Shown one piece after another: positions 1-12,967 of a stretch of DNA of 64,000 bases. The notes beneath the pieces are model-generated. The model saw only the letters and a program-made list of their open reading frames with translations. It did no database searches and was not told the DNA's origin. The translations under genes and the position numbers were made by a program. Location of the stretch: assembly GCF_012767755.2 (NCBI RefSeq), contig NZ_AP023189.1, forward strand, positions 1,302,001 through 1,366,000. Reading direction: 5' to 3'. Source of the stretch: Pseudomonas tohonis (GTDB lineage Bacteria > Pseudomonadota > Gammaproteobacteria > Pseudomonadales > Pseudomonadaceae). The first letter of the stretch is position 1. Every line of letters starts with the position of its first letter.

Positions 1-993
1 CACCTGGAAACCGCCATCCTCCACGGCATTCCCACCTTCGTCCTCGGCACCCAGCAGGGCCAGGCGCTGCGCAACGCCATCCAGCGTTTCGCACCCACCA
101 CGGTCGCCGCGTTCCCGCGCAGCTACGTGCTGCTGGTCGAGGGCGGCATCGCCCATGACGAGTTCCCCACCGTGCGCCGCTGGTTCGCCATGGGCGATGC
201 CTCGCACCAGAGCCACATCCGCCGGATCCTCGAAGGCGCGCCGCAGTCGCGCTTCATCGACGCCTTCGGCAGCTCCGAGCTGGGCATGGCACTGTTCCGC
301 AGCGAATCGAGCCTCGGTGCCATCGCCGCCCAGCGCTGCATCGGCCGCCCGGTGGACATCGCCGTGGCCAAGGTGCTCGACCCGCTCAGCGGCGACGAGG
401 TGCAGCCGGGCGAGATCGGCCTGCTCGCCGTGCGCTCGCCCACCGTCACCTCCGGCTACTGGAAGCAGCCGCAGAAGACCGTCGACGCCTGGCGCGGTGG
501 CTACTTCCTCACCGGCGATATCGCCTTCTGCAAGGACGGCGAGTTCTACCAGATCGACCGCGCGGTGGATGTCATCGACTCGCCCGCCGGTGCCCTGCAC
601 ACCCTCCAGCTGGAAGAAGCGGCGCAGCAGGTGGACGGCGTATGCGACGTCACCGTGGTCGGCGTCGACCCGGCCCGCAGCGGTGGCGTCGGCCTGCTCG
701 CCCTGGTCCTGCCGGAGCGCGGCGCGACCGACGCATCGGCCATCGCCGTCCGGGTTCTGCGCACCCTGCACGAGGCCGCGGCGTCGCGTGGCGCACTGGT
801 GGCGGAAGGCTTCATCGCCGTCGCCGTGGTCAGCGACCTGGCGTTCCTGCCCGTCGGCGCCACCGGCAAGGTGCTCAAGCGCCACCTGCGCAGCGTCGCC
901 CAGGCCCTGCTGGCCGGGGAGGGCGGGCAGCAGGTGCAGCACCTGCTGCGCCCCGCCCATCGCCAGCTCGCCACCGCCGGACACGGGCTCTGA
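1..993 (+). CDS. AMP-forming acyl/aryl ligase (ANL superfamily), C-terminal part, cut by the window edge
   Basis: The frame is open from base 1, so the N-terminus lies outside the window and about 330 residues are visible. The C-terminal motifs of adenylate-forming enzymes are present in order: an FGSSELG segment (A5-like), LTGDIAF (A7-like), IDRAVDVI (A8-like hinge) and GATGKVLKRHLR near the end, with the A10 lysine. Enzymes of this family activate a carboxylate with ATP and pass it to CoA or a carrier protein; the substrate cannot be read here. The stop is followed 34 bp later by a methyltransferase gene, the second of nine same-strand genes, so this ligase probably starts or feeds a biosynthetic pathway. 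No carrier-protein domain is fused at the C-terminus. Confidence 0.8.
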   Translation, partial: HLETAILHGIPTFVLGTQQGQALRNAIQRFAPTTVAAFPRSYVLLVEGGIAHDEFPTVRRWFAMGDASHQSHIRRILEGAPQSRFIDAFGSSELGMALFRSESSLGAIAAQRCIGRPVDIAVAKVLDPLSGDEVQPGEIGLLAVRSPTVTSGYWKQPQKTVDAWRGGYFLTGDIAFCKDGEFYQIDRAVDVIDSPAGALHTLQLEEAAQQVDGVCDVTVVGVDPARSGGVGLLALVLPERGATDASAIAVRVLRTLHEAAASRGALVAEGFIAVAVVSDLAFLPVGATGKVLKRHLRSVAQALLAGEGGQQVQHLLRPAHRQLATAGHGL

Positions 994-1027
994 GCTGCAG
1001 GCCGGCCACCCCACAAGGAATCCCAGC

Positions 1028-1741
1028 ATGACCCAAGCAACCTACGAGACCGGCGCACTGGCGTCGGTCCGCCAGCGCCTCGCCGCCGCCGAAGCCGACG
1101 GGCAGACGGAGTACGAATGCATGGGCCGCAGTTTCGCGGTGCATGACGGCGTATTCCCGCCGACCCACTTCCAGTCCACCGGCATCTTCACCCGCCACCT
1201 GCCCTACCCCCGGGGCGGGCGCCTGCTGGAGATCGGCTGCGGCGCCGGCGTCACCGCCGTCACCGCCGCCCTTGAAGGCTGCCGCGAAGTGGTGGCCAGC
1301 GACATCAGCGAGGCGGCCGTGCGCAACACCCGCGCCAATGCCGCGCGCCATGGCGTGACCGGGAAGATGTCGATCCGCCAGGGCGACCTGTTCGAGGTAC
1401 TGGAGCCGGGCGAGCGTTTCGACGTCATCTTCTGGAACTCCAACTTCGTCTTCGTCGAGGCCGAACACGTCTTCGACAAGGCCATCATGCTCGCCTTCTG
1501 CGACCCGGGTTACGCCGCCCACAAACGCTTCCTCGACGAGGCCCCCGAGCATCTGGCCGACGGCGGCATGCTGCTCATGGGCTTCAGCAGCCAGGGTGAT
1601 GGCGGCGCACTGGAGGCGATGCTCGCCGAGCACGGCTACGGCTCGCGCCGGGTCGCCTCGGTGACCGGCCAGGGCGCGGGCGCACCGCGCTACGACATCC
1701 TCCAGCTCCTGCCGGGTGCGCACGCACCCGCAGGCGCCTGA
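1028..1741 (+). CDS. SAM-dependent methyltransferase, class I fold
   Basis: This 237-residue protein starts at ATG 1028 behind AAGGA. Motif I (LLEIGCGAGVTAV) gives the SAM-binding glycine loop and is followed by an acidic strand end (VVASDISEAAV). The overall pattern resembles small-domain methyltransferases such as HemK/PrmC, but the NPPY-type substrate motif is replaced by WNSNFVF. An amino-group of glutamine is therefore not the obvious acceptor, and an O-, N- or C-methylation of a small metabolite is more likely from context. It sits between the ligase and a flavin monooxygenase in the same operon. The exact reaction is unknown. Confidence 0.8.
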   Translation: MTQATYETGALASVRQRLAAAEADGQTEYECMGRSFAVHDGVFPPTHFQSTGIFTRHLPYPRGGRLLEIGCGAGVTAVTAALEGCREVVASDISEAAVRNTRANAARHGVTGKMSIRQGDLFEVLEPGERFDVIFWNSNFVFVEAEHVFDKAIMLAFCDPGYAAHKRFLDEAPEHLADGGMLLMGFSSQGDGGALEAMLAEHGYGSRRVASVTGQGAGAPRYDILQLLPGAHAPAGA

Positions 1742-1763
1742 CCGGCAGCGACGGAGCCTCATC

Positions 1764-3494
1764 GTGAGCACAGGCCAGAAGACCCAGCACGCCGCCGTGG
1801 CCATCGTCGGCGGCGGCCCCGTGGGGATGATGCTCGCGCTGTTCCTGGACCACCACGGCGTGCCCGTGGTGCTGTTCAACAGCGAGCGCAACACCCGCTG
1901 GCACCCCAAGGGCAACACCCACAACTCGCGCACCATGGAGCACTACCGGCGCCTGGGCCTGGCGGAGGCCATCCGCCGCCTCGGCCTGCCCGAGGACCAC
2001 CCGCGCGACGTCGCCTACTTCACCCGACTCAACGCCTGGGAGTTGGCGCGCCTGGACATGCCCTCCGAGCGCGAGCGCATGGCGGCGGCCCGCGCCGCCG
2101 AGGACACCGACCAGGTGCCCGAGCCGCTGCTGCGGGCCAACCAGATGTACGTCGAGCGCTTCCTCCTCGAACACATCCGCACCCGGCCCAACATCCAGCT
2201 GCGCTTCGGCTGGCGGGTCAGCGGCTTCGAGCAGGACGCCGACGGCGTGCGCCTGATCGCCGTGGAGAGCGCCAGCGGCGAAGCCCTGGAGCACTGGCGC
2301 GCCGACTACCTGGTGGGGTGCGACGGCGGGCAGAGTTTCGTCCGCCGCACCCTCGGCATCGGCTACCTGGGGCCGGACGGCTCCAGTGGCGGCTTCCTCA
2401 GCGGGCGCATGTTCTCCAGCCACGTGCGTGTCCCTGCGCTGCACCGCGACATCCTCCCCGACCGCAAGGCCTGGATGTACAACGTGGTGGCGCCCGACGC
2501 GCGCATGCTGCTGATCAGCCTGGATGGCGAGGACGAGTTCCTGCTCATGACCCAGGCACGTTCCCACGACGAGATGCCCCAGGACGACCGGGTGATCGCC
2601 GCCATCCGCCAGGGCGTCGGTGCCGACGTCGAGGTCGAGGTGCTGGCTCACGCCGTGTGGCATGGCGGCCTGGCCCTGGTGGCCGAGCGCTTCTCCGACC
2701 GCCGGGTGTTCCTCGCCGGCGATGCCACGCACCTGTTCTCGCCCACCGGCGGCTTCGGCATGAACACCGGCATCGACGGCGCCGCCAACCTCGCCTGGAA
2801 ACTGGCCGCCGCCATCCAGGGCTGGGCCGGGGAAGGGCTGCTGGCGTCCTACGAGCTGGAGCGGCGCCCGGTCACCCTGCGCAACACCGAAGCCGCGCGC
2901 CAGCTCACCCAGCGCGTGGGCAAGGTGGAGGTGCCCGCCGCCGTCGAGGCCCGGGGCACCGAGGGCGACCGGGCACGCGCGCAGCTCGGCGTGTCGCTGC
3001 GCGGCTTCCGGGGGCAGTTCACCTCCATCGGCGTCGAACTCGGCGCCCGCTACGACGCCTCCCCCATCGTCTGGCAGCAGGGCCAGCCGCCGGCGGACGA
3101 CCCGCTGCACTACCGGCCCAGCACCGTGCCCGGCGGGCGCCTGCCGCACCTGTGGCTGCCCGCTGGCGACGGCACGCGGCGCTCGGTCTTCGACCTGCTC
3201 GGGGCGGGGTTCACCCTGCTCCGGGTCGGGCCCGATGCGCCCTCGGTGGAGCGCCTGCGCGAGGCCGCCGCGGCCCGGGGCATCCCGTTGACGGTGGTGG
3301 AGCTGCCGGCCAGCGCGCGTGACTGCTACCGGGTCGCCCTGTTGCTGGTGCGCCCTGACCAGCACATCGGCTGGCGTGGCGACGACGTGCCGGAAGACGC
3401 CGGCGCGGTACTGGAAAAGCTGGTGGGGCACGGCTGCGCCGTGCACCCGAAGGAAGGCCAGGCGCTGGTTGGCGTCCTGGGTGCGGTTGGCTAG
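1764..3494 (+). CDS. Class A FAD-dependent aromatic-type monooxygenase (PheA/MhpA-like)
   Basis: This 576-residue protein has the three class A hydroxylase fingerprints. The N-terminal GGGPVGMMLALFL loop binds FAD, the YLVGCDGGQSFVRR motif (DG) contacts FAD and NAD(P)H, and RVFLAGDATHLFSPTGG (GD) binds the ribityl chain. The last 130 residues look like the thioredoxin-fold tail of phenol hydroxylase-like enzymes, ending with a VRPDQHIGWRGDD segment. I chose GTG 1764 because ACGGAG lies 7 nt upstream and the gene then starts just after the methyltransferase stop; an ATG at 1716 would overlap that gene. The family hydroxylates phenols or oxidises polyketide-like aromatics. The substrate here is unknown. 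Confidence 0.85.
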   Translation: MSTGQKTQHAAVAIVGGGPVGMMLALFLDHHGVPVVLFNSERNTRWHPKGNTHNSRTMEHYRRLGLAEAIRRLGLPEDHPRDVAYFTRLNAWELARLDMPSERERMAAARAAEDTDQVPEPLLRANQMYVERFLLEHIRTRPNIQLRFGWRVSGFEQDADGVRLIAVESASGEALEHWRADYLVGCDGGQSFVRRTLGIGYLGPDGSSGGFLSGRMFSSHVRVPALHRDILPDRKAWMYNVVAPDARMLLISLDGEDEFLLMTQARSHDEMPQDDRVIAAIRQGVGADVEVEVLAHAVWHGGLALVAERFSDRRVFLAGDATHLFSPTGGFGMNTGIDGAANLAWKLAAAIQGWAGEGLLASYELERRPVTLRNTEAARQLTQRVGKVEVPAAVEARGTEGDRARAQLGVSLRGFRGQFTSIGVELGARYDASPIVWQQGQPPADDPLHYRPSTVPGGRLPHLWLPAGDGTRRSVFDLLGAGFTLLRVGPDAPSVERLREAAAARGIPLTVVELPASARDCYRVALLLVRPDQHIGWRGDDVPEDAGAVLEKLVGHGCAVHPKEGQALVGVLGAVG

Positions 3495-3530
3495 ATCAAC
3501 GACCGGGTCGACGACCCGCAAGGAGGATGT

Positions 3531-4256
3531 ATGAGTTCACTGGAAGCCGGCTTCGAGGTCGGCGCGGTGCTGGAGCAGGACCTGCAATCGGACTACGCCG
3601 AGGACGCCGCGGAGAACGCAGCGGCCTTCGCCCTGATCGAGGACGACCCCGATCCGCAGGTGGTCAACGGCGAGCCGGAGGGTGCCTCGATCCGCTTCGT
3701 CAAGACCGGCGAAACCACCCGTGGCCGCTACCTGATGGCCAAGGTGGAGATCCCCCCGGGCTCGGGCCCGCCGCTGCACGTGCACACCCGCACGGACGAG
3801 TGGTTCTACGCCCCCGACGGCGGCGTGGTGATGCTCATGGGCACGCGCACCTACACCGACATGGACAACCCGCCGGACGTCTCCGGGCGCGACACCATCC
3901 GCATGATCCCCATGAAGAAGGGCGCCATGGTCTTCGGCCGACGCAACCACATCCACGGCTTCCTCAACATCTCCGACAAGACCGTGATGATGTGGCTGGT
4001 GTGGACCCCCGACACCCCCGAAGTGACCTTGAAGGACTACTTCGAATCCATCGCCCGGCCGATCCTCCCGGGCGTCCGGGGCGCACGCAACAACCCGATC
4101 GTGCAGCTCAAGGCGGTCAGCGAGGCGCGCGACTACGGAATGATGTTCAGCACCGATTTCTGGCAATACGCCGAGAAGGTGGAGGAGGGCGAGGCGCCCT
4201 TCGGCAAGAACCTGGACGGCCTGATCAGGCTGTTCGAATCCGCCAAGCAGGCGTGA
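3531..4256 (+). CDS. Cupin-domain protein, quercetinase-like
   Basis: This 241-residue protein starts behind AAGGAGG. Cupin motif 1 is clear (PPLHVHTRTDEWFYAPDGG, giving two His and a Glu metal ligand), and motif 2 follows (GRRNHIHGFLN, with the last His). A complete His/His/Glu/His site suggests an active mononuclear metal enzyme rather than a structural cupin. Family members include quercetin-type dioxygenases, cyclases and isomerases. Lying next to a flavin hydroxylase, it could open or rearrange a hydroxylated ring; that is inference. There is no signal peptide. Confidence 0.8.
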   Translation: MSSLEAGFEVGAVLEQDLQSDYAEDAAENAAAFALIEDDPDPQVVNGEPEGASIRFVKTGETTRGRYLMAKVEIPPGSGPPLHVHTRTDEWFYAPDGGVVMLMGTRTYTDMDNPPDVSGRDTIRMIPMKKGAMVFGRRNHIHGFLNISDKTVMMWLVWTPDTPEVTLKDYFESIARPILPGVRGARNNPIVQLKAVSEARDYGMMFSTDFWQYAEKVEEGEAPFGKNLDGLIRLFESAKQA

Positions 4257-4290
4257 AGACGCGACAACCCAACAAGGAACGAGGTGACAC

Positions 4291-5055
4291 ATGAGTATTC
4301 TGGCGAACAAGACCGCGATCGTGACCGGGGCCAGCTCCGGCATCGGCTTCGAGGCCGCGAAGCTCTTCGCGAAGGAGGGCGCCAAGGTGGTGGCCGTGGC
4401 ACGCCGGGGCGAGGCCCTGGAACGGCTGGTGGACGAGATCACCGCCGCCGGCGGCGTGGCCGTGGCCCTGGCCGGCGACGTCAAGGACGAGCGCTGCGTG
4501 CGTGAAGCCGTGGCCCTGGCGGTGAGCCGCTTCGGCGGCCTCGACATCGCCTTCAACAACGCCGGCTCCATGGGCGCGCTGGGTGCGGTGACCGATATCA
4601 GCGTCGAGGGCTGGCACGACACGATCGACACCAACCTGACCAGCGCTTTTCTCTGCGCGCGCCACCAGATCCCCGAGCTGCTCAAGCGCCCCGGCGGCTC
4701 GCTGATCTTCACCTCCTCCTTCGTCGGCCACAGCGTCGGCTTCCCCGGCATGGCCGCCTATGCGGCGAGCAAGGCCGGCCTGGTCGGGCTGACCCGCACC
4801 CTGGCGGCCGAATACGGCGCCCAGGGCCTGCGCGTCAACGTGCTGCTGCCGGGCGGCACCGACACCGAGATGGGCCGCGCCGCCGCCTCCACCGCTGAGC
4901 AGAAGGCCTTCGTCGAGAGCATCCACGCGCTCAAGCGCATGGCGCGCCCGGAGGAGATCGCCCAGTCGGCGCTGTACCTGGCCTCCGATGCCTCGAGCTT
5001 CGTCACCGGTACGACCCTGTTCGTGGAAGGCGGCGTGACCATCACCCGCACGTGA
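4291..5055 (+). CDS. Short-chain dehydrogenase/reductase (classical SDR)
   Basis: This 254-residue protein has the full classical SDR set: TGASSGIG cofactor loop, NNAG, a catalytic Ser in the FTSSFVG strand, and YAASK with Tyr and Lys. The ending (ASDASSFVTGTTLFVEGG) is typical of FabG-like oxidoreductases. It starts at ATG 4291 behind AAGGAACGAGG, 34 bp after the cupin. It probably interconverts an alcohol and a ketone on the pathway intermediate with NAD(P)(H). A second SDR lies further along the same operon. Confidence 0.85.
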   Translation: MSILANKTAIVTGASSGIGFEAAKLFAKEGAKVVAVARRGEALERLVDEITAAGGVAVALAGDVKDERCVREAVALAVSRFGGLDIAFNNAGSMGALGAVTDISVEGWHDTIDTNLTSAFLCARHQIPELLKRPGGSLIFTSSFVGHSVGFPGMAAYAASKAGLVGLTRTLAAEYGAQGLRVNVLLPGGTDTEMGRAAASTAEQKAFVESIHALKRMARPEEIAQSALYLASDASSFVTGTTLFVEGGVTITRT

Positions 5056-5059
5056 ACCG

Positions 5060-5080
5060 GCGGGGGCCTCGCGCCCCCGC
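5060..5080 (+). other. Intercistronic GC hairpin between SDR and GMC genes
   Basis: The arms GCGGGGGC (5060-5067) and GCCCCCGC (5073-5080) are perfect with a 5-nt loop. There is no U-tract, so it is more likely a transcript-stability or processing hairpin than a terminator. Confidence 0.5.
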
Positions 5081-5110
5081 TCCAGGAAGCCGACCCGTTC
5101 AGGAACGAAC

Positions 5111-6829
5111 ATGAAGAACCGCAACCCTTTCCCGTCGCTCGATCCGCTCGTTGAAGGCGCAGCCGGCTTCGGCGCCTCCGGCCGACGCGATTTCCTCTCC
5201 CGTCTGCTGGCCCTTGGGGCTGGCGCCGGTGCCGCGAGCCTGGGCCTGCTGCCCGCCGCCACGCTGGCCGGCGAGCCGGGAGGCCGCCCGTCCCACCGCC
5301 AGGACTACGACTACGTGATCGTCGGTGCCGGCTCCTCCGGTTGCCTGCTGGCCGACCGCCTGTCCGCCACCGGCGCCTCGGTGCTGCTGATCGAGGCCGG
5401 CAGCCACCGCATCGACCAGCCGAAGATCCGCGAAGTGGCGCTGTGGCTGCAGAACATCGGCAGCGACACCGACTGGGCCCGCCAGAGCACGCCGCAGGCG
5501 CAGCTCGACAGCCGCCAGCAGGCGCTGGCCGCCGGCAAGGTGGTGGGTGGCTCCGGCAGCATCAATGCGATGATCTGGCTGCGCGGCGACCCCCGCGACC
5601 TGGCCCAGTGGCAGCGCCACGTCGGCGGCCCCTGGAGCGTCGAGGCACTGCACCGCGCCTACGACGACATGGCGCGCCCGGTCGGCAGCCCCAGCCAGGG
5701 CCCCTCGCGCATCCGCGTCGGCCGCTACGCCGACCCGCACCCGCTCACCGCCGCCTACCTCGGCGCCAGTGCCGACACCGGCCTGCGCACCATCGAGCTG
5801 AACGCCGGCCGCCCGCTCGACGGCGCCGGGGTCACCGAGGTCAACGCTACCGCCGACGGCTACCGCGTCGGCCCGGCCCAGGCCTTCCTGGTGCCGGCCC
5901 TGGCGCGGCGCAACCTCAGCGTGCTGTCCGACGCGCTGATCACCAACCTGATCATCCAGGGCAACCGCTGCCAGGGTGTGCGCGTGCTGGTGGACAACGC
6001 CCTGGTGCAGATCCGCGCCAGCCGCGAGACCATCCTCTGCGCCGGCACCTGCGAGTCGCCCAAGCTGCTGATGCTCTCCGGCATCGGCCCGCTGGACGAG
6101 CTGCGCGCCCAGGGCATCCCGGTGCGCCAGCACCTGCCGGCGGTGGGGCGCAACCTGCAGGACCACCTGCTGCTGAGCCTGCAGTACCGCTCCCGGGTGT
6201 TCGTGCCGCCGCAGCTGTCCAACGGCGTGTCGACCATGTCGTACTACAGCAATGGCCCGGCGCACCTCGCCCCGGACGTTCAGGTGGCCGGCATGCAGTA
6301 CCCCTTTGGCCCGCTGCAGGCGCCGGCCGGCGGCTCCTACACCCTGATCCCCTTCCTCGCCAAGCCGCGCAGCCGTGGCCGCGCGCGCCTGGCCGGCACG
6401 GACCCGCGCCAGAACATGCTGCTGGACCCGGGCTACCTCGGCGAGCGCATTGACCGCGACAACATGGTCTTCGCCCTCGAACGCGGCCTGGCCCTGGGCG
6501 CGAGCCGGGCGCTGGCCGGGTTCAACGGCGGCCTCTACCCGGCGGACCCACTGCGCACCTACGCCGAGAAGCTCGCCTTCATCGCCCGCAACGCCGGCCC
6601 CGGCCTGCACTACACCGGCACCTGCTCCGCCGGCCGCGACCCGGCCCGCAGCGTGGTGGATGCGCGCTTTCGGGTCTGGGGCGTGGACGGGCTGCGGGTG
6701 GTGGACGCCTCGGTGATCCCCGAGATGCCGGCGGTGAACATCCACGCCTCGGTGCTCAGCGTCGCCCAGCTCGCCGCGCGGGTGCTGGTGGAGGAGCGCC
6801 GCTCGCACCATCACCCCGCAATGGCCTGA
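5111..6829 (+). CDS. GMC-family FAD oxidoreductase with a Tat signal
   Basis: This 572-residue protein has an N-terminal twin-arginine signal: GRRDFLSRL with the arginines at residues 25-26, then an alanine/glycine/leucine-rich hydrophobic stretch. The FAD loop VIVGAGSSGCLLADRL and the GMC end (HYTGTC, then LRVVDASVIPEMPAVN) are present; the His of HYTGTC and the Asn of AVN match the usual His/Asn catalytic pair. Tat export would place a folded FAD enzyme in the periplasm. GMC enzymes oxidise alcohols, sugars or choline. Other members of the operon look cytoplasmic, so this step may act on an exported product. It starts at ATG 5111 behind AGGAACGA. Confidence 0.85.
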   Translation: MKNRNPFPSLDPLVEGAAGFGASGRRDFLSRLLALGAGAGAASLGLLPAATLAGEPGGRPSHRQDYDYVIVGAGSSGCLLADRLSATGASVLLIEAGSHRIDQPKIREVALWLQNIGSDTDWARQSTPQAQLDSRQQALAAGKVVGGSGSINAMIWLRGDPRDLAQWQRHVGGPWSVEALHRAYDDMARPVGSPSQGPSRIRVGRYADPHPLTAAYLGASADTGLRTIELNAGRPLDGAGVTEVNATADGYRVGPAQAFLVPALARRNLSVLSDALITNLIIQGNRCQGVRVLVDNALVQIRASRETILCAGTCESPKLLMLSGIGPLDELRAQGIPVRQHLPAVGRNLQDHLLLSLQYRSRVFVPPQLSNGVSTMSYYSNGPAHLAPDVQVAGMQYPFGPLQAPAGGSYTLIPFLAKPRSRGRARLAGTDPRQNMLLDPGYLGERIDRDNMVFALERGLALGASRALAGFNGGLYPADPLRTYAEKLAFIARNAGPGLHYTGTCSAGRDPARSVVDARFRVWGVDGLRVVDASVIPEMPAVNIHASVLSVAQLAARVLVEERRSHHHPAMA

Positions 6830-6835
6830 GCCGCT

Positions 6836-6863
6836 GCCCGCGCCTGATCGGCGCGGGCCTTTT
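6836..6863 (+). terminator. Intrinsic terminator inside the operon, after the GMC gene
   Basis: GCCCGCGCC (6836-6844) and GGCGCGGGC (6850-6858) form a perfect 9-bp stem with a 5-nt loop, followed by C and four T. It lies 7 bp after the GMC stop and 24 bp before the next start, so expression of the last three genes may be lowered or need a promoter of their own. Confidence 0.7.
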
Positions 6864-6886
6864 CCCAACGAATCCGAGGTACCGCC

Positions 6887-7657
6887 ATGAAGACCCTGCT
6901 GGCCGAGAAGGCCGAGTTGATCGACCAGAGCGTCGACGCCATGAAGACCCACCTGGTGGCGACGGAGCGGCCCTTGCGCGAGAAGGTCGCGCTGACCTGC
7001 CGCATCCTCTTCACCCACGGGCATGATTCCGGCCTCGCCGGGCAGATCACCGCGCGCACCGAGACCCCGGGCCGCTACCTGACCCAGCGCCTGGGGCTGG
7101 GCTTCGACGAGATCACCCCGGCCAACCTGCTGGAGGTGGACGAGGACCTGGTGGTGATGGCCGGCGACGGCATGGCCAACCCGGCCAATCGCTTCCATTC
7201 CTGGATCTACCGCGCGCGAGCCGACGTCAACTGCATCGTCCACACCCACCCCATGCACGCCAGCGCGCTGTCGCTGCTGGAGCGCCCGCTGAAGGTGGCG
7301 CACATGGACAGCTGCATGCTCTACGACGAGGTGTCCTTCCTCGCGCGCTGGCCGGGCGTACCGGTGGGCAACGAGGAGGGCGAGCTGATCGCCTCGGTGC
7401 TGGAGCACCGGCGCGCCGCGCTGCTCGCCCACCATGGCCTGGTGATCGCCGCGCGCAGCGTCGAGGAAGCCTGCGTGCTCGCCGTGCAGGTAGAGCGCAC
7501 GGCGCGCATGCAGCTGCTGGCCGAGGCGGCGGGGGAGATCCGCGACATCGACCCGGCGCTGGCCCGCGAGGCCCACGACTGGATCCTCCAGCCCACGCGC
7601 AGCCGCGCCACCTTCGACTATTTCGCCCGCCGCGCCCTGCGCGAGCTGCCGTTCTGA
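6887..7657 (+). CDS. Class II aldolase/adducin-fold enzyme
   Basis: This 256-residue protein has the zinc-binding pattern of the class II aldolase family: HTHPMH for the first two His and LAHHGLV for the third. The family also includes sugar-phosphate epimerases, dehydratases and aromatic-acid decarboxylases. The stretch where fuculose-phosphate aldolase has its catalytic Glu reads NPANRFHSWIY, without Glu, so retro-aldol chemistry on a sugar phosphate is not assured and decarboxylation is a real alternative. It starts at ATG 6887 after an internal terminator and is 29 bp from the next SDR. The substrate is unknown. Confidence 0.75.
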   Translation: MKTLLAEKAELIDQSVDAMKTHLVATERPLREKVALTCRILFTHGHDSGLAGQITARTETPGRYLTQRLGLGFDEITPANLLEVDEDLVVMAGDGMANPANRFHSWIYRARADVNCIVHTHPMHASALSLLERPLKVAHMDSCMLYDEVSFLARWPGVPVGNEEGELIASVLEHRRAALLAHHGLVIAARSVEEACVLAVQVERTARMQLLAEAAGEIRDIDPALAREAHDWILQPTRSRATFDYFARRALRELPF

Positions 7658-7686
7658 CCCATCACCCTTTCCTGCGAGGTATCGCC

Positions 7687-8433
7687 ATGCAGCACTCCTT
7701 GCTTTCCAAGAACGCCCTGGTCACCGGGGCCTCCCGTGGCATCGGCAAGGCCACGGCCCTGGCCCTCGGCGCCGCCGGTGCCTATGTGCTGGTGCACTGC
7801 AACCGTGGCCTCGACGAGGCCCACGGCGTGGTCACCGAGATCCGCGACCGGGGTGGCCGCGCCGACGTGCTGGTGGCCGACCTCGCCAGCGCCGATGGGC
7901 CGCGCATCCTCGCCGCCGAAGTGGGCGAGCGCGTGCGTCGCCTGGATGTGCTGGTGGCCAGCGCCGGCATCGCCCAGACGGCGAAGCTGGAGGACACGCG
8001 CATCGAGGACTTCGATCGCCTGTTCGCGGTCAACGTGCGTGCGCCGTTCTTCCTGGTCCAGCAACTGCTGCCGTTGCTGGGCGAGGGCAGCAGCCTGGTG
8101 ATGATCTCGTCCCTGGGCGCGCGCTCGGCGGTCGGCGATATCCCCGCCTATGCCGCCACCAAGGGCGCGCTGGACACCCTGGTGCTGCACTTCGCCCAGG
8201 CGCTCGGCGGGCGCGGCATCCGCGTCAACGGCCTGGCCCCAGGGGTGGTGGACACCGAGATGTCCAGCTTCGTGCGCAGCGACGAAGGGCGCGACTTCGT
8301 GCTCGGCATCCAGGCGCTGCAGCGCGTGGCGCAGCCGGAGGACATCGCCGATGCGGCGCTGTTCCTGGCCTCCGACGCCTCGCGCTGGATCACCGGGGAC
8401 ATCCTCAGCGTCGACGGCGGCACCAAGCTGTAA
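7687..8433 (+). CDS. Second short-chain dehydrogenase/reductase
   Basis: This 248-residue classical SDR has TGASRGIG, an ASAG in place of NNAG, MISSLGARS with the catalytic Ser, and YAATK. The tail (ASDASRWITGDILSVDGG) is FabG-like. It differs widely from the SDR at 4291-5055, so the two are unlikely to be recent duplicates and may act at different steps. It follows the aldolase-fold gene by 29 bp and precedes the acyltransferase by 25 bp. Confidence 0.85.
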   Translation: MQHSLLSKNALVTGASRGIGKATALALGAAGAYVLVHCNRGLDEAHGVVTEIRDRGGRADVLVADLASADGPRILAAEVGERVRRLDVLVASAGIAQTAKLEDTRIEDFDRLFAVNVRAPFFLVQQLLPLLGEGSSLVMISSLGARSAVGDIPAYAATKGALDTLVLHFAQALGGRGIRVNGLAPGVVDTEMSSFVRSDEGRDFVLGIQALQRVAQPEDIADAALFLASDASRWITGDILSVDGGTKL

Positions 8434-8458
8434 CCACGGGCCGCCAGGGGTAGACACC

Positions 8459-9709
8459 ATGAACATGAAGACCGAACTGCCTGCCGGCGCGCCTGCGGCC
8501 CACGCCGGTGCGTCGAGGAACCTCGAACTCGACCGGCTGCGCGCCATCGCCGTGCTGCTGACCTTCTACGTCCACCTGTACCAGGTGTTCTACCCCTGGA
8601 CCTTCACCATGCATTACCCCAAGCCCGAGTCGGTGCTCGACCTGTTCGGCAACGCCTGGGCGGGGGTCGATCTGTTCTTCGTGATCTCCGGCTACATCAT
8701 TTCGCGCACCCTGCTGGAGCAACTGGACGGGTTGCGCAGCGGCGTGCAGCGGGCGGCCTGCATCAAGGCCTTCTACGTGCGCCGGGTGTTCCGCATCCTG
8801 CCGGTGGCCTGGGTGGTGGTGGCGCTGGTGATGGCCTGCAGCCTGTTCCTCAACCAGGGGCAGTACTTCGCCTCGCCGGTGTACAACGCCCAGGCGGCGC
8901 TGGGCATCTTCACCTACACCTTCAACTTCTGGCTGCCGGACAACAAGATCGCCGAAGGCGTGCCGCTGGCGCCCTACTGGAGCCTGTCGGTGGAGGAGCA
9001 GTTCTACCTGTTCTACCCACTGTTCCTGCTGGTGCTCAAGAGCACCCGGGCGCGGGTGATGGCACTGGTGGGCGGGCTGCTGCTGGTGAGCCTGGTGCTG
9101 CGGCCCTTCAGCCTCTCCGACCCGATGAAGGTGTTCTTCTTCACCCAGACCCGCTGCGACGGCCTGCTCTATGGCTGCCTGCTGTACCTGGCCACCACCC
9201 AGAGCTGGTTCGAGGCGATCCGCGTGCGCGCCGGCCATTACCGCTACGCCGGGGCCTGGGTGGTGGTGCTGCTGGCGCTGGTGCTGGGCAGCGTCACCGC
9301 CATCGGTTTCGGCAACACGCTGGCGATCCCGGTGGTCTGCGCCTTGTCGCTGGTGCTGGTGTTCATGGCGGCCTGCGAGGGCAACCTGATCGTCTTCCCC
9401 CAGCCGCTGCAGTGGGCGCTGGACTACCTCGGCAAGCGCTCCTACACGCTGTACCTGGTGCACATCCCGATGTTCTACCTGACCCTGGAACTGATGTTCC
9501 GCTACACCCGCAGCGAGGGCATCGCCATCACCGATGCGCTGTGGCCGCAGTACACGGTGCTGATGCTGGTGCTGGTGTTCGGCGCCACCGAACTGATCCA
9601 CCGCACGGTGGAGAAGCCGATGATCGCCTTCGGCAAGCGCATCGCCGAGCGCGCCCGCGTGCCAGTCGAGGCCGCCCCGCAAGCCCTGGCGCCCACGCCG
9701 GCCCCTTAG
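8459..9709 (+). CDS. Membrane acyltransferase, OafA/YrhL (acyltransferase 3) family
   Basis: This 416-residue protein has about ten predicted membrane segments. The family signature is near the N-terminus: LELDRLRAIAVLLTFYVHLY, with the conserved Arg and catalytic His, followed by GVDLFFVISGYII. YWSLSVEEQFYLFYPL is another family hallmark. These enzymes move acetyl or other acyl groups from acyl-CoA to sugars, lipids or natural products at the inner membrane. As the last gene of the run it may acylate the finished product. It starts at ATG 8459; no strong ribosome site is visible, so translation may be coupled to the SDR upstream. Confidence 0.85.
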   Translation: MNMKTELPAGAPAAHAGASRNLELDRLRAIAVLLTFYVHLYQVFYPWTFTMHYPKPESVLDLFGNAWAGVDLFFVISGYIISRTLLEQLDGLRSGVQRAACIKAFYVRRVFRILPVAWVVVALVMACSLFLNQGQYFASPVYNAQAALGIFTYTFNFWLPDNKIAEGVPLAPYWSLSVEEQFYLFYPLFLLVLKSTRARVMALVGGLLLVSLVLRPFSLSDPMKVFFFTQTRCDGLLYGCLLYLATTQSWFEAIRVRAGHYRYAGAWVVVLLALVLGSVTAIGFGNTLAIPVVCALSLVLVFMAACEGNLIVFPQPLQWALDYLGKRSYTLYLVHIPMFYLTLELMFRYTRSEGIAITDALWPQYTVLMLVLVFGATELIHRTVEKPMIAFGKRIAERARVPVEAAPQALAPTPAP

Positions 9710-10246: not shown

Positions 10247-10876
10247 TCAGCGCCCGGCCGGGAAGCCCAGCTCCAGGCTCAGGCGCTGGCCGCTGCGCAC
10301 ACGGCTGGTGCCGTGCTTGAGGCCGGCGCCGTAGCGTTGGCCGAGGCTGTTGCGCACCGGACGGCGACCTTCGCTGAAGAGCACGGCATCGCCCTGGCGC
10401 AGGGGTAGCACGGTGGCGCGCGATTGCATGCGCGGGCGCTGCTCGGTGACGACGAATTCGCCGCCGGTGAAGTCGCTCCGGGGGCAGGCCAGGAGAATGG
10501 CCAGGCGCAGGGGCAGGGCAGCGGTGCCGTCGCCCTGTCGCAACGCCAGGTACTCGCCCGTGCCGAGATGGCAGAACCGTGCATCGATGGCGCCGGCCGG
10601 CCCGGTCGGGTAGCGCCCGGGCTCGTCCAGTTCCTCGCTCCAGCGATTGGCCAGTCGGGCCAGCGCGGGGTAGAGCCCGTCGCCGAGTTCGCCGGGCAGG
10701 GCCCCGGCCGTGGCGAGCCACTCGCCACGGCCGGGTTCGAGGGGGGCGAGGCGGGTGCCCATGCCCTTCGCCTGCCGGCGCCACTGCTGCACCGTGCCCG
10801 CATCCAGCAGGCCGGGCAGCAGGGCGTAGCCGTCTTCATCCAGGCAGCGGATCAGCGACGGCCAGTCCAGGCTCAT
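10247..10876 (-). CDS. 2OG-Fe(II) oxygenase-like protein with a degenerate iron site
   Basis: This 209-residue protein aligns along its C-terminal half with the oxygenase at 13021-13764: LAILLACPRSDFTGGEFVVTE against LAILLSAPEQDFSGGEFVLTE. Where the paralogue has the HQD iron motif, this one reads LRQGDG, so the first His ligand is Arg and the Asp is shifted by one. The distal His and the 2OG-binding Arg are kept (LKHGTSRVRSGQR). It starts at ATG 10876, overlapping the ada stop by 4 nt (ATGA), so it is translationally coupled to ada. It may be inactive, use another metal site, or be a regulatory partner. Confidence 0.7.
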   Translation of the reverse strand: MSLDWPSLIRCLDEDGYALLPGLLDAGTVQQWRRQAKGMGTRLAPLEPGRGEWLATAGALPGELGDGLYPALARLANRWSEELDEPGRYPTGPAGAIDARFCHLGTGEYLALRQGDGTAALPLRLAILLACPRSDFTGGEFVVTEQRPRMQSRATVLPLRQGDAVLFSEGRRPVRNSLGQRYGAGLKHGTSRVRSGQRLSLELGFPAGR

Positions 10877-12000
10877 GGCTGCGCCACGGCCTGCTTGGCA
10901 CGGGGCGGCACGCTGGGGGCGGCTGCCGGCTTGGCTTCGCGTTGCAACAGCTCGCGCTTGCGCTCGATGCCCCAGCGGTAGCCGGAGAGGTCGCCGTTGC
11001 GTCGCACCACGCGGTGGCAGGGGATGGCCACGGCGATGTGGTTGGCACCGCAGGCCTGGGCCACCGCGCGTACCGCCTTGGGCGCACCGATGCGTTCGGC
11101 GATGTCGGTGTAGCTGACGGTAGTGCCTGGCGGGATGTCCCGCAGGGCCTGCCACACCCGCTCCTGGAAGGCGGTGCCGCGGACGTCCAGGGGCAGGTTG
11201 AGGCCGAGCGAAGGCGCTTCGATGAAGCCGACGACCTGGGCCACCAGGCGCTCGAAGTCCGCGTCGCCGCCGACCAGCTGGGCCTTGGGGAACTGGTCCT
11301 GCAGGTCGCGTACCAGGGCATCGGGGTCGTCGCCCAGGAGGATGGCGCAGACCCCGCGCTGGCTCTGCGCGACGAGGATGGCGCCCAGCGAGCACTGGGC
11401 CACGGCGAAGTGGATCGAGGCGCCGGCGCCGCCATCGCGGTATTCGCTGGCGCGCATGCCGAGCAACTGGTCGGAGGTTTCGTAGAAGCGGCTGTTGGAG
11501 TTGAAGCCGGCGCCGTAGATGGCATCGGTCACCGAGGTGCCGACATCGCTGAGCTCGCGGCGCAGGCGGCGGGCGCGGTAGGCCGAGACGTAGGCCTTCG
11601 GCGTCAGCCCGGTCTCGGTCTTGAACACCCGGTGGAAGTGCGAGGGGCTCATGCCCGAGCGCGCCGCCAGCTGGTTGAGGTTGAGCGGCGAGTCGGCTGC
11701 CTCGATGGTGCGGCAGGCCTCGGCGATCAGCGCGGCGCGGCGGGCGGCAGTGCTGGTGCGGTCTCCCGCCAGGCTGCGGCTGGCACGATAGCCGGCGGCT
11801 TCGGCGGCGGCCGGGGTGTCGAAGAACTCGACGTTCTTGCGGTTGGGCAGACGGGTCGAGGAGCTGGGGCGGCAGTAGACGCCGGTGGTCTTCACCGCGT
11901 AGACGAACTGGTCGTCGGCGGCGCTGTCGCGGGCCCTGACGGCTGCCCAGCGTTGATCGTCCGTGATGTAGAGAGCGGTTTCTTGCAGGTTCCTGCTCAT
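10873..12000 (-). CDS. ada: Bifunctional Ada: AraC-type regulator and O6-methylguanine methyltransferase
   Basis: This 375-residue protein has three parts. Residues about 1-80 match the Ada zinc/phosphotriester domain, about 85-180 an AraC HTH (GMSPSHFHRVFKTETG), and the C-terminus the suicide methyltransferase with IPCHRV, the acceptor Cys. The Ada N-domain normally has four Cys; here the first is kept (GVYC) but the second is Ser (RPSSS) and the GFRPCKRC-type closing pair reads GYRASRSL. Zinc binding and phosphotriester-triggered activation are therefore doubtful. ATG 12000 was chosen because an upstream extension has no ribosome site and crosses a perfect palindrome. It is the first gene of a three-gene run. 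Confidence 0.88.
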   Translation of the reverse strand: MSRNLQETALYITDDQRWAAVRARDSAADDQFVYAVKTTGVYCRPSSSTRLPNRKNVEFFDTPAAAEAAGYRASRSLAGDRTSTAARRAALIAEACRTIEAADSPLNLNQLAARSGMSPSHFHRVFKTETGLTPKAYVSAYRARRLRRELSDVGTSVTDAIYGAGFNSNSRFYETSDQLLGMRASEYRDGGAGASIHFAVAQCSLGAILVAQSQRGVCAILLGDDPDALVRDLQDQFPKAQLVGGDADFERLVAQVVGFIEAPSLGLNLPLDVRGTAFQERVWQALRDIPPGTTVSYTDIAERIGAPKAVRAVAQACGANHIAVAIPCHRVVRRNGDLSGYRWGIERKRELLQREAKPAAAPSVPPRAKQAVAQP

Positions 12001-12048
12001 GGTGGTTATCCAGAAAGACCGTTGACTATTGCAGGTTAAAACCGAACC

Positions 12049-12078
12049 CGAACGCAAGAACTCCGGTTCTTGCGTTCG
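12049..12078. promoter_or_regulatory. Perfect 13-bp-arm palindrome upstream of ada
   Basis: CGAACGCAAGAAC (12049-12061) and GTTCTTGCGTTCG (12066-12078) are exact inverted repeats around TCCG, 48 bp before the ada start. Each arm contains GCAAGAA, close to the GCAA core of the E. coli Ada box. There is no T-tract, so an operator is more likely than a terminator for the ogt gene upstream. Confidence 0.55.
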
Positions 12079-12174
12079 AATTCTCCGTGGCGCCGCCAAG
12101 GCGTTCCGATGCGGGCGCAGGGCACCGGGATCAGGAAGGATGGACACCTTCCGCCTCCCGTGCCGGGCGTTGCG

Positions 12175-12720
12175 TCAGAACAGCGCGGCGGTGCGCGGCT
12201 CGGCCACGACGGGGCGCAGGGCCTTCTCGTGCTCCAGCAGCCAGCGCTTGCGCTCCAGACCCCAGGCGTAGCCGCGCAGTTCGCCGTTGGCGGCGATCAC
12301 GCGGTGGCAGGGGATGACGATGGCGATGGGGTTGGCGGCGTTGGCCACGCCTATGTCGATGGCGGCACGCGGGTCCTCCAGGCCCAGGTCGCGGGCCAGT
12401 TGGCCATAGCTGCGGGTTGCGCCGGCGGGAATCTGCCGCAGCGCCGCCCAGACCTGGAGCTGGAAGGGCGTGCCGTTGGGCTCCACGACCAGTTCGTCGA
12501 GCGCATCGCAATCGCCTTCGAAATAGCGGCGCAGGGCGGTGGCTATCGCCTTGGGCGCCGGGATCTCGGGGAGGTCCTTGGCGCTCGGGCGATCCTTCAA
12601 GGAGCGCGTGAGCTGGCGCTTGTAGTCGCCGAAGCCCAGGGCGCGGATGCGTTGCTGTTCGTCGGTCACCAGCAGCAGTTCGCGCAGGGGCGAACTCAGG
12701 CGGCTCATCATCAATGTCAT
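12175..12720 (-). CDS. ogt: Methylated-DNA--protein-cysteine methyltransferase
   Basis: This 181-residue protein has the Ogt/MGMT active site IPCHRV and the RSYGQLARDLGLEDPRAA helix-turn-helix with the conserved Arg finger region, then GYAWGLERKRWLL. It transfers the methyl group from O6-methylguanine to its own Cys in a one-time reaction. Start ATG 12720 sits behind AAGGAGATTGCC. It lies 10 bp after a small protein gene and 174 bp before ada, so the locus has two O6-methylguanine methyltransferases, one constitutive-looking and one fused to a regulator. Confidence 0.9.
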   Translation of the reverse strand: MTLMMSRLSSPLRELLLVTDEQQRIRALGFGDYKRQLTRSLKDRPSAKDLPEIPAPKAIATALRRYFEGDCDALDELVVEPNGTPFQLQVWAALRQIPAGATRSYGQLARDLGLEDPRAAIDIGVANAANPIAIVIPCHRVIAANGELRGYAWGLERKRWLLEHEKALRPVVAEPRTAALF

Positions 12721-12730
12721 GGCAATCTCC

Positions 12731-12967
12731 TTATCGCAGTCGAGTGACGCTGTGGGGACGGAGCAGGAAGATTTCCCCGCTGTCCAGGTGCAGCTCGGTT
12801 CGGCCCGAATCATCCGTGTGCCAGCGGGCCTGCCTGGCATCCACCAGTGCCTGGAAGGCACTGATCACCCGCAGGCGCGCGGCCGGGTCGTCCTCGCTCG
12901 GGCCGGTGGCTGCCGTGCCGGGCTCGAGGAAGGCGGCGGGGCCGATGTCCTGTGGGCGAATGGGCAT
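12731..12967 (-). CDS. Small hypothetical protein upstream of ogt
   Basis: This 78-residue product is not recognised. It is acidic in the middle, with a C-terminal segment rich in beta-forming residues (ELHLDSGEIFLLRPHSV). It ends 10 bp before the ogt start, which supports a shared transcript. ATG 12967 has no clear ribosome site; a TTG at 13024 in frame would add 19 residues. A hairpin CCCGCCT/AGGCGGG lies just upstream of the ATG. It has no Cys and no membrane segment. Confidence 0.5.
   Translation of the reverse strand: MPIRPQDIGPAAFLEPGTAATGPSEDDPAARLRVISAFQALVDARQARWHTDDSGRTELHLDSGEIFLLRPHSVTRLR

Follow-up and report, generated by a model that had tools for sequence, protein, structure and literature searches.

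In Streptomyces, the GriH/GriI pair makes 3-amino-4-hydroxybenzoate (3,4-AHBA), and the available sections of PMC6692506 describe a pair of this type that forms it from aspartate semialdehyde and dihydroxyacetone phosphate in bagremycin and ferroverdin biosynthesis. A diazotization step may leave no trace in the product: the avenalumic and p-coumaric acid pathways release N2, and for the crexazones a cryptic diazo step has been considered, according to the accessible parts of PMC10777205 and PMC11429834. The same portion of PMC10777205 counts 72 of the 134 reported ava-like clusters without avaE/avaD, the ANS (aspartate-nitrosuccinate) genes, and does not settle where these obtain their nitrous acid. 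Diazo chemistry by a diiron enzyme has a precedent: Dob3, which is ferritin-like and distinct from the haem-oxygenase-like diiron (HDO) family, turns hydrazones into diazo groups (PMC13061610, available sections). Here, we describe an eleven-gene cluster at the left end of a 64,000-nucleotide stretch (the window) of Pseudomonas tohonis, in which GriH- and GriI-like genes precede a gene encoding an HDO domain fused to an adenylating domain. We tentatively propose, with a confidence close to but short of even, that this is an operon for a 3,4-AHBA-derived metabolite whose central step would be ATP- and nitrite-dependent N-N bond formation.

The genome consists of one contig of 6.83 Mb (NZ_AP023189.1), of which the window covers positions 1302001-1366000; the 19 kb around its left edge were taken as stretch L009 (window base = L009 base minus 18000). 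The first-pass annotation of the window had reported nine same-strand genes with short gaps and a cut left end. These genes indeed all lie on the plus strand, with gaps of 19-57 bases and Pfam support for each, and the set runs on to the left, where two more genes and the first 1448 bases of the ligase gene lie, giving an eleven-gene same-strand unit from -3636 to 9709 in window coordinates. The ligase gene starts at L009 16552 and has its 3' part at 1..993 (plus strand). It encodes 813 amino acids, with an HDO domain at about 55-227 (Haem_oxygenas_2, PF14518) and an adenylating domain at about 250-790 (AMP-binding, PF00501, matching 307-637); the annotated "ligase" does have an adenylating domain but is not a plain ligase. 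On the same strand, 55 bases upstream, lies the GriI-like aldolase gene (L009 15699-16496; PF01791), preceded after 9 bases by the GriH-like gene of the 3-dehydroquinate-synthase-II family (L009 14364-15689; PF01959). A check of the DNA left of base 1 for carrier proteins, regulators and transporters had been suggested; the cluster genes found there are these two, neither of which is of such a kind. By Pfam, no polyketide synthase (PKS), non-ribosomal peptide synthetase (NRPS), carrier protein, regulator or exporter was found among the eleven genes, which supports the earlier idea of a cluster for small-molecule biosynthesis that has neither PKS nor NRPS.

The adenylating domain was nearer, in both fold and sequence, to two enzymes of nitrogen chemistry than to coenzyme A (CoA) ligases: its closest solved structures were the ATP-dependent diazotase CmaA6, as the first named match, and the N-nitrosating Tri17, as the second, with CoA ligases further off. 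The GDxxHxxH motif of CmaA6 and Tri17 is present in the fusion as GDASHQSH (548-555). Among the 90 listed loci described below, it occurred in 72 of the 73 clade rows and in none of the 17 outgroup rows, a count that is alignment-based and uses a loose pattern picked after the sequences were seen, a stricter first pattern having given 19/90. Placement of the domain among diazotases and N-nitrosating enzymes is well supported by these comparisons, and nitrite is its likely substrate. The "activated acid" of the first-pass annotation is thus probably wrong, since the domain groups with nitrite-activating enzymes and the two genes outside the window probably supply an aminohydroxybenzoate as starting unit. 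The methylation, hydroxylation, reduction and acylation proposed there may still hold. Generic CoA-ligase models match the domain as well, and the accessible text of PMC10777205 has AvaA1/CmaA1 adenylating 3,4-AHBA, while that of PMC6692506 has FevW proposed to condense it, AMP ligases probably acting likewise in bag/fev. The domain might by analogy activate the carboxylate of 3,4-AHBA for an alcohol, an amine or CoA, leaving the HDO domain to oxidize the amine to a nitroso or nitro group. Two related clusters (L026 and L027), with gene starts resembling PaaA-E by eye, point the same way; PaaA-E act on CoA esters. We consider this scheme quite unlikely, however, as the nearest structures and sequences are those of nitrite-activating enzymes and the eleven genes hold no carrier protein or condensing partner.

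The HDO domain carries the six metal ligands of its family (E/H/E/H-x3-D-x2-H) as E95, H106, E158, H188, D192 and H195, which are kept in all 17 fused homologs as well as in 10 out of 10 rows of an alignment that includes unfused homologs. Its structural matches include the N-oxygenases HrmI, HamA and RohS. Provided that the adenylating domain activates nitrite, the chances that the HDO domain is the nitrite source are even or slightly better, and on our best reading it would stand in place of the ANS genes found elsewhere.

To describe the neighbours of adenylating-domain relatives, we scored 90 loci, namely 80 among the matches listed in a contig scan and 10 fetched stretches (L015, L112-L120), using our own thresholds and flanks of up to 10 kb, with some contigs ending early; L016-L018 were excluded as duplicate or fragments. 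Among these listed matches, an HDO gene was nearby at 19 loci, CreE at 9 and CreD at 7, all within the CreE loci, and no locus (0/90) combined HDO with either of these ANS genes. The remaining loci had GriI/GriH only (5), belonged to the clade without any of these genes (40), or were outgroup (17). The named HDO loci are from Pseudomonadota or Bdellovibrionota, and the ANS loci are all from Actinomycetota. An adenylating-domain tree of 86 rows (the 85 loci with a sufficiently long fragment, plus the P. tohonis domain) was built by a quick method, with long branches flagged. In it, 16 of the 19 HDO rows and the P. tohonis row fell in one 19-row clade (SH-aLRT 97), while the HDO rows L025, L030 and L031 lay outside it and the ANS rows in three places; the HDO label required 2 changes, versus a mean of 7.8 after shuffling.

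Neither CreD nor CreE was found among the eleven genes. A CreE query gave no match in the P. tohonis genome (G000) or in G009, G008, G774, G829, G821 and G768; in G004 and G766 it scored weakly, at 22-28 bits. NarG exceeded its cut-off in 5 of the 11 cluster genomes but in none of the four from the window's genus; NasA and NapA were not tested. With no CreE match and no NarG over cut-off, ANS and NarG do not account for nitrite in the P. tohonis genome. The nitrosuccinate-lyase model decides nothing on this point: its best match in P. tohonis reached 370 bits (cut-off 650), but each of the 12 genomes searched and each of the 14 control genomes had sub-cut-off matches, and the lyase adjoining the ligase of a control locus (L038) itself scored 507 bits, under the same cut-off.

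These data also bear on a different division of labour, in which the HDO domain would N-hydroxylate the arylamine and the adenylating domain would N-nitrosate it, drawing nitrite from general metabolism. The product would be an aryl N-nitrosohydroxylamine (diazeniumdiolate) and might chelate metal. The N-oxygenases among the HDO structural matches are in line with this scheme, as is the fragin HDO enzyme HamA, proposed in the available parts of PMC5878181 and PMC11705231 to hydroxylate the amine, the distal nitrogen coming from a nitrite donor. Tri17 takes several nitrogen nucleophiles, and L026 and L027 encode single-frame HDO-cupin fusions laid out as SznF and GrbD. Such a scheme gives no account of HDO and ANS genes never co-occurring among the listed matches, and NarG was below cut-off in all four fusion-bearing genomes of the genus, other nitrate reductases not having been tested. 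We therefore regard it as unlikely.

Two further kinds of locus were seen in this adenylating family. Five loci (L026, L027, L115, L116 and L118) represent a second kind of cluster, with an HDO and no GriH/GriI match. The cupin fused in one frame to the HDO in L026 and L027 is small and gentisate-dioxygenase-like, and is encoded by the next gene in L118; L026 and L027 also carry open reading frames (ORFs) resembling, by eye, PaaA-E and chorismate-type genes. Five others (L119, L120, L070, L032 and L029) have a GriI relative and lack HDO and ANS genes within the stretch covered; a GriH relative is present in three of them, L119 and L120 having GriI without GriH.

Regarding the precursor, the GriH-like protein matched PF01959 with 295 bits and the BagC/FevH model with 244 bits, against a cut-off of 750. 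For the GriI-like protein, a DhnA/DeoC-type aldolase, the best curated models were 2-amino-3,7-dideoxy-hept-6-ulosonate synthase and BagB/FevI (152 bits, cut-off 500), all under cut-off; it was also the sole match in its genome to the former model. In a Paludibacterium cluster with a related ligase, HDO and aldolase, GriI falls on the actinobacterial/archaeal side of the tree, which favours 3,4-AHBA. From these family assignments, the starting unit is probably 3,4-AHBA or a close isomer; GriI is the weakest link for the 3,4-AHBA precursor.

The eleven genes almost certainly form a real conserved cluster. By tblastn, the order GriH, GriI, fusion, methyltransferase, flavin monooxygenase, cupin, short-chain dehydrogenase/reductase (SDR) 1, GMC oxidoreductase, (aldolase), SDR2, acyltransferase was found in three genomes of the genus, P. 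tohonis included, and in three Burkholderia-genus genomes, a recurrence that places the cluster beyond chance. Far from being scattered in relatives, the genes thus keep their order from the window's genus to Burkholderia. The full order with the aldolase was observed in P. tohonis and G009 (L015). G004 (L016, on what is evidently the L019 contig of Pseudomonas otitidis DSM 17224) and the three Burkholderia-genus genomes (L112, L113 and L114; 64-81% identity) have the order minus the aldolase. In a fourth genome of the genus, G008, the left half was seen on two contigs (L017 and L018), the fusion itself being split between them. Photorhabdus (L020 and L021) and Burkholderia multivorans WS-FJ9 (L022) share GriH/GriI, the fusion, the methyltransferase and the flavin monooxygenase, then diverge with a second flavin monooxygenase, a small gentisate-dioxygenase-like cupin and a different SDR; L022 lies at a contig edge, with just the end of GriI visible and the fusion gene in two frames. 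In L117 the ligase lacks HDO, which is encoded separately; the aldolase is present and a close SDR2 absent, and at the stretch edge part of an acyltransferase lies on the opposite strand.

The fusion was rare, being present in 4 of the 18 genomes of the genus and 4 of the 398 in a family sample. A class sample gave 2 matches out of 369, P. tohonis itself and one ligase-only match at 34%. For the genus of L022, 6 of 65 genomes gave matches, at identities of 66-70% in four and 39-41% in two; for the family of L023, 5 of 392 did, one at 68% and the other four at 35-43%. In Pseudoduganella (L023 15092-17235), weak AMP-binding (PaaK-like by eye) and PLP-dependent PALP-family genes lie between GriI and HDO. 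A lead to proferrorosamine, raised by the presence of Erwinia rhapontici among the homologs, was dropped with no genes compared.

In the proposed pathway, judged from the enzyme families, the GriI-like aldolase and the GriH-like synthase would first supply 3,4-AHBA or a close aminohydroxybenzoate. The adenylating domain, to go by its family, structure and signature motif, would then make a nitrite adenylate and pass it to the arylamine, yielding a diazo species, while the fused HDO domain would be the likeliest source of the oxidized nitrogen, freeing nitrite or an equivalent from an amine, the weakest step, suggested by co-occurrence. The methyltransferase, flavin monooxygenase and cupin would modify or open the ring; the SDRs and the exported GMC enzyme would adjust the oxidation state, and the membrane acyltransferase would O-acylate the product. 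The N-N bond could be retained, or its nitrogen could leave as N2, as happens in the avenalumic acid pathway. The cupin could even open a diazo-bearing ring to give an N-N heterocycle such as a pyridazine, an idea kept outside our estimates. In its strongest form, which we find rather doubtful, a single polypeptide would make and use its own nitrosating agent, the HDO domain converting an amine to nitrite or an equivalent with which the adenylating domain diazotizes a 3,4-AHBA derivative. If true, diazo chemistry would have a second genetic route that does not depend on ANS, spread across Pseudomonas, Burkholderia, Massilia and Photorhabdus.

Several observations weigh against nitrite-dependent N-N bond formation on 3,4-AHBA. 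The adenylating domain is only about 30% identical to CmaA6 and Tri17, and reached 271 bits with the AvaA6 equivalog model NF058622, far below its cut-off of 975. In fold comparisons, the best structural match of the HDO domain was CADD, with the N-oxygenase HrmI close behind, so that more than one reaction may be envisaged for it. The P. tohonis GriI belongs to a different clade from archaeal proteins and the GriI-like ones of actinobacteria, and the precursor may therefore be another aminohydroxybenzoate. The lack of ANS genes alone proves little, because 40 clade loci show neither HDO nor ANS genes within the stretches covered. CreE relatives (35-37%) exist, away from the clusters, in G1035 (Massilia) and G767 (Paludibacterium), and nitrite could also come from other nitrate reduction or from outside.

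The remaining eight genes of the cluster all lie on the plus strand of the window. The first (1028..1741) encodes a putative S-adenosylmethionine (SAM)-dependent methyltransferase with a HemK/PrmC-like fold (PF05175, 53 bits), whose best solved relatives scored about 41 bits and which has orthologs in L015, L019, L020-L022, L112-L114 and L117. It is followed by an FAD-dependent aromatic-ring monooxygenase (1764..3494, likely GTG start at 1764; PF01494, 243 bits, and PF21274), its nearest named solved relatives being RebC and then 2,4-dichlorophenol 6-monooxygenase. The cupin (3531..4256; Cupin_2/Cupin_1), a relative of Sll1785, has H83, H85, E90 and H142 invariant across 18 aligned sequences; we take these residues to be the likely metal ligands, and the protein is probably metal-binding through them. 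In G009, the cupin (L015 10987-11711) appears as two overlapping frames, either a split frame or a sequencing slip. SDR1 (4291..5055) and SDR2 (7687..8433), both matching PF13561 and PF00106, had been called unrelated, but are 37% identical over 249 columns. The GMC oxidoreductase (5111..6829; PF00732 and PF05199) is predicted to be exported, given its twin-arginine N-terminus (GRRDFLS), found likewise in four of the five orthologous stretches examined. The class II aldolase-fold enzyme (6887..7657; PF00596) has as solved relatives the "Aldolase" 8ix6/8il8 and, more distantly, NovR and TqaM. Its gene is optional, being missing from L016/L019 and L112-L114; Pseudoduganella L023 and Paludibacterium L024 have it too (65-72% identity), in the company of GriH, GriI, HDO and ligase. 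The last gene (8459..9709; Acyl_transf_3, PF01757, 86 bits) encodes a membrane acyltransferase, presumably for O-acylation. A ligase, a hydroxylase, a ring-cleaving cupin, an aldolase and dehydrogenases are enzyme types frequent in ring degradation, and the Photorhabdus and B. multivorans variants have a cupin resembling gentisate dioxygenase. An operon for the catabolism of an aromatic compound nevertheless seems very improbable: this one begins with GriH/GriI-like building genes and ends with an acyltransferase, has no uptake transporter or regulator among its eleven genes, and occurs in 4 of 398 family genomes.

To the left, 585 bases without a called gene (codon-usage script) separate the GriH-like gene from tRNA-Lys, -Pro and -Asn. 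A promoter/terminator scan upstream found no promoter-like site and two terminator-like sites (mean of 0.8 in shuffles), one directly after tRNA-Lys; downstream of the cluster, it found none. The tRNA trio (L009 13529-13778) is conserved at the corresponding position of 17 further genomes of the genus, with variable DNA following it, and the stretch left of the cluster that comprises the tRNAs and a gene taken to be DUF1631 is present in all 18. In 14 cluster-free genomes of the genus, stretches of 5.7-12.6 kb contained none of the eleven genes and no right-flank Ada-like gene (E 1e-10). This suggests acquisition or loss of the cluster at the tRNA site, although the empty site itself was not found in these stretches. 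G+C content, which was not used as evidence, was 69.8% in the cluster, 66.8% in the window and 61.1% in the first 13 kb of L009. On the right, minus-strand ORFs at 10247-12861 resemble, by eye, a 2-oxoglutarate-type hydroxylase and Ada-type and Ogt-type DNA-repair methyltransferases. The hydroxylase and Ada-type matches also follow the cluster in G009, and all three do in G004 (hydroxylase 47%).

In the open-licence papers searched (two listings showing the best 25 of 22,746 and the best 15 of 215; subscription papers and preprints not covered), we came across no account of an HDO-diazotase fusion or a matching cluster, and the pathway, already unfamiliar to the first-pass annotation, matched no known cluster gene by gene. 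The components are of known kinds; what seems new lies in the fusion, in the gene set and in the apparent substitution of HDO for ANS genes. The grixazone and bagremycin/ferroverdin clusters (gri, bag/fev) have the GriH/GriI-type pair in common with that of P. tohonis, but use copper o-aminophenol oxidase chemistry (PMC6692506, available sections), for which no gene is present among the eleven. The cremeomycin and crexazone clusters of Streptomyces (cre, crx) share, by family, CreH/CreI-type 3,4-AHBA genes, a CreM-type adenylating enzyme and a SAM methyltransferase, as described in the accessible parts of PMC11429834 and PMC11705231. They carry CreD/CreE for nitrite, whereas the P. tohonis cluster has the fused HDO and, beyond cre/crx, a cupin, a GMC enzyme, SDRs, an aldolase and an acyltransferase (CreN/CreM being compared by description, not sequence). 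SznF and the fragin enzyme HamA are HDO enzymes described, in the sections available, without an adenylating domain of the fusion's clade. Tri17 of triacsin biosynthesis, for which nitrite adenylation is proposed, is a single-domain enzyme with a hydrazone substrate and no HDO fusion. Finally, the avenalumic and p-coumaric acid clusters (ava, cma) share, again by family, the 3,4-AHBA genes and an ATP-dependent diazotase, CmaA6 being the closest named structure, but differ by a type II PKS, by a ligase that loads a carrier and by ANS genes, which are usual but not universal. For the question of the nitrite source, the HDO-diazotase fusion clade, with no ANS gene found alongside, offers one possible answer, which a single purified protein would suffice to test, and, if true, would extend nitrite-dependent adenylating enzymes, described from actinomycetes in the sources as available, to several Gram-negative genera.

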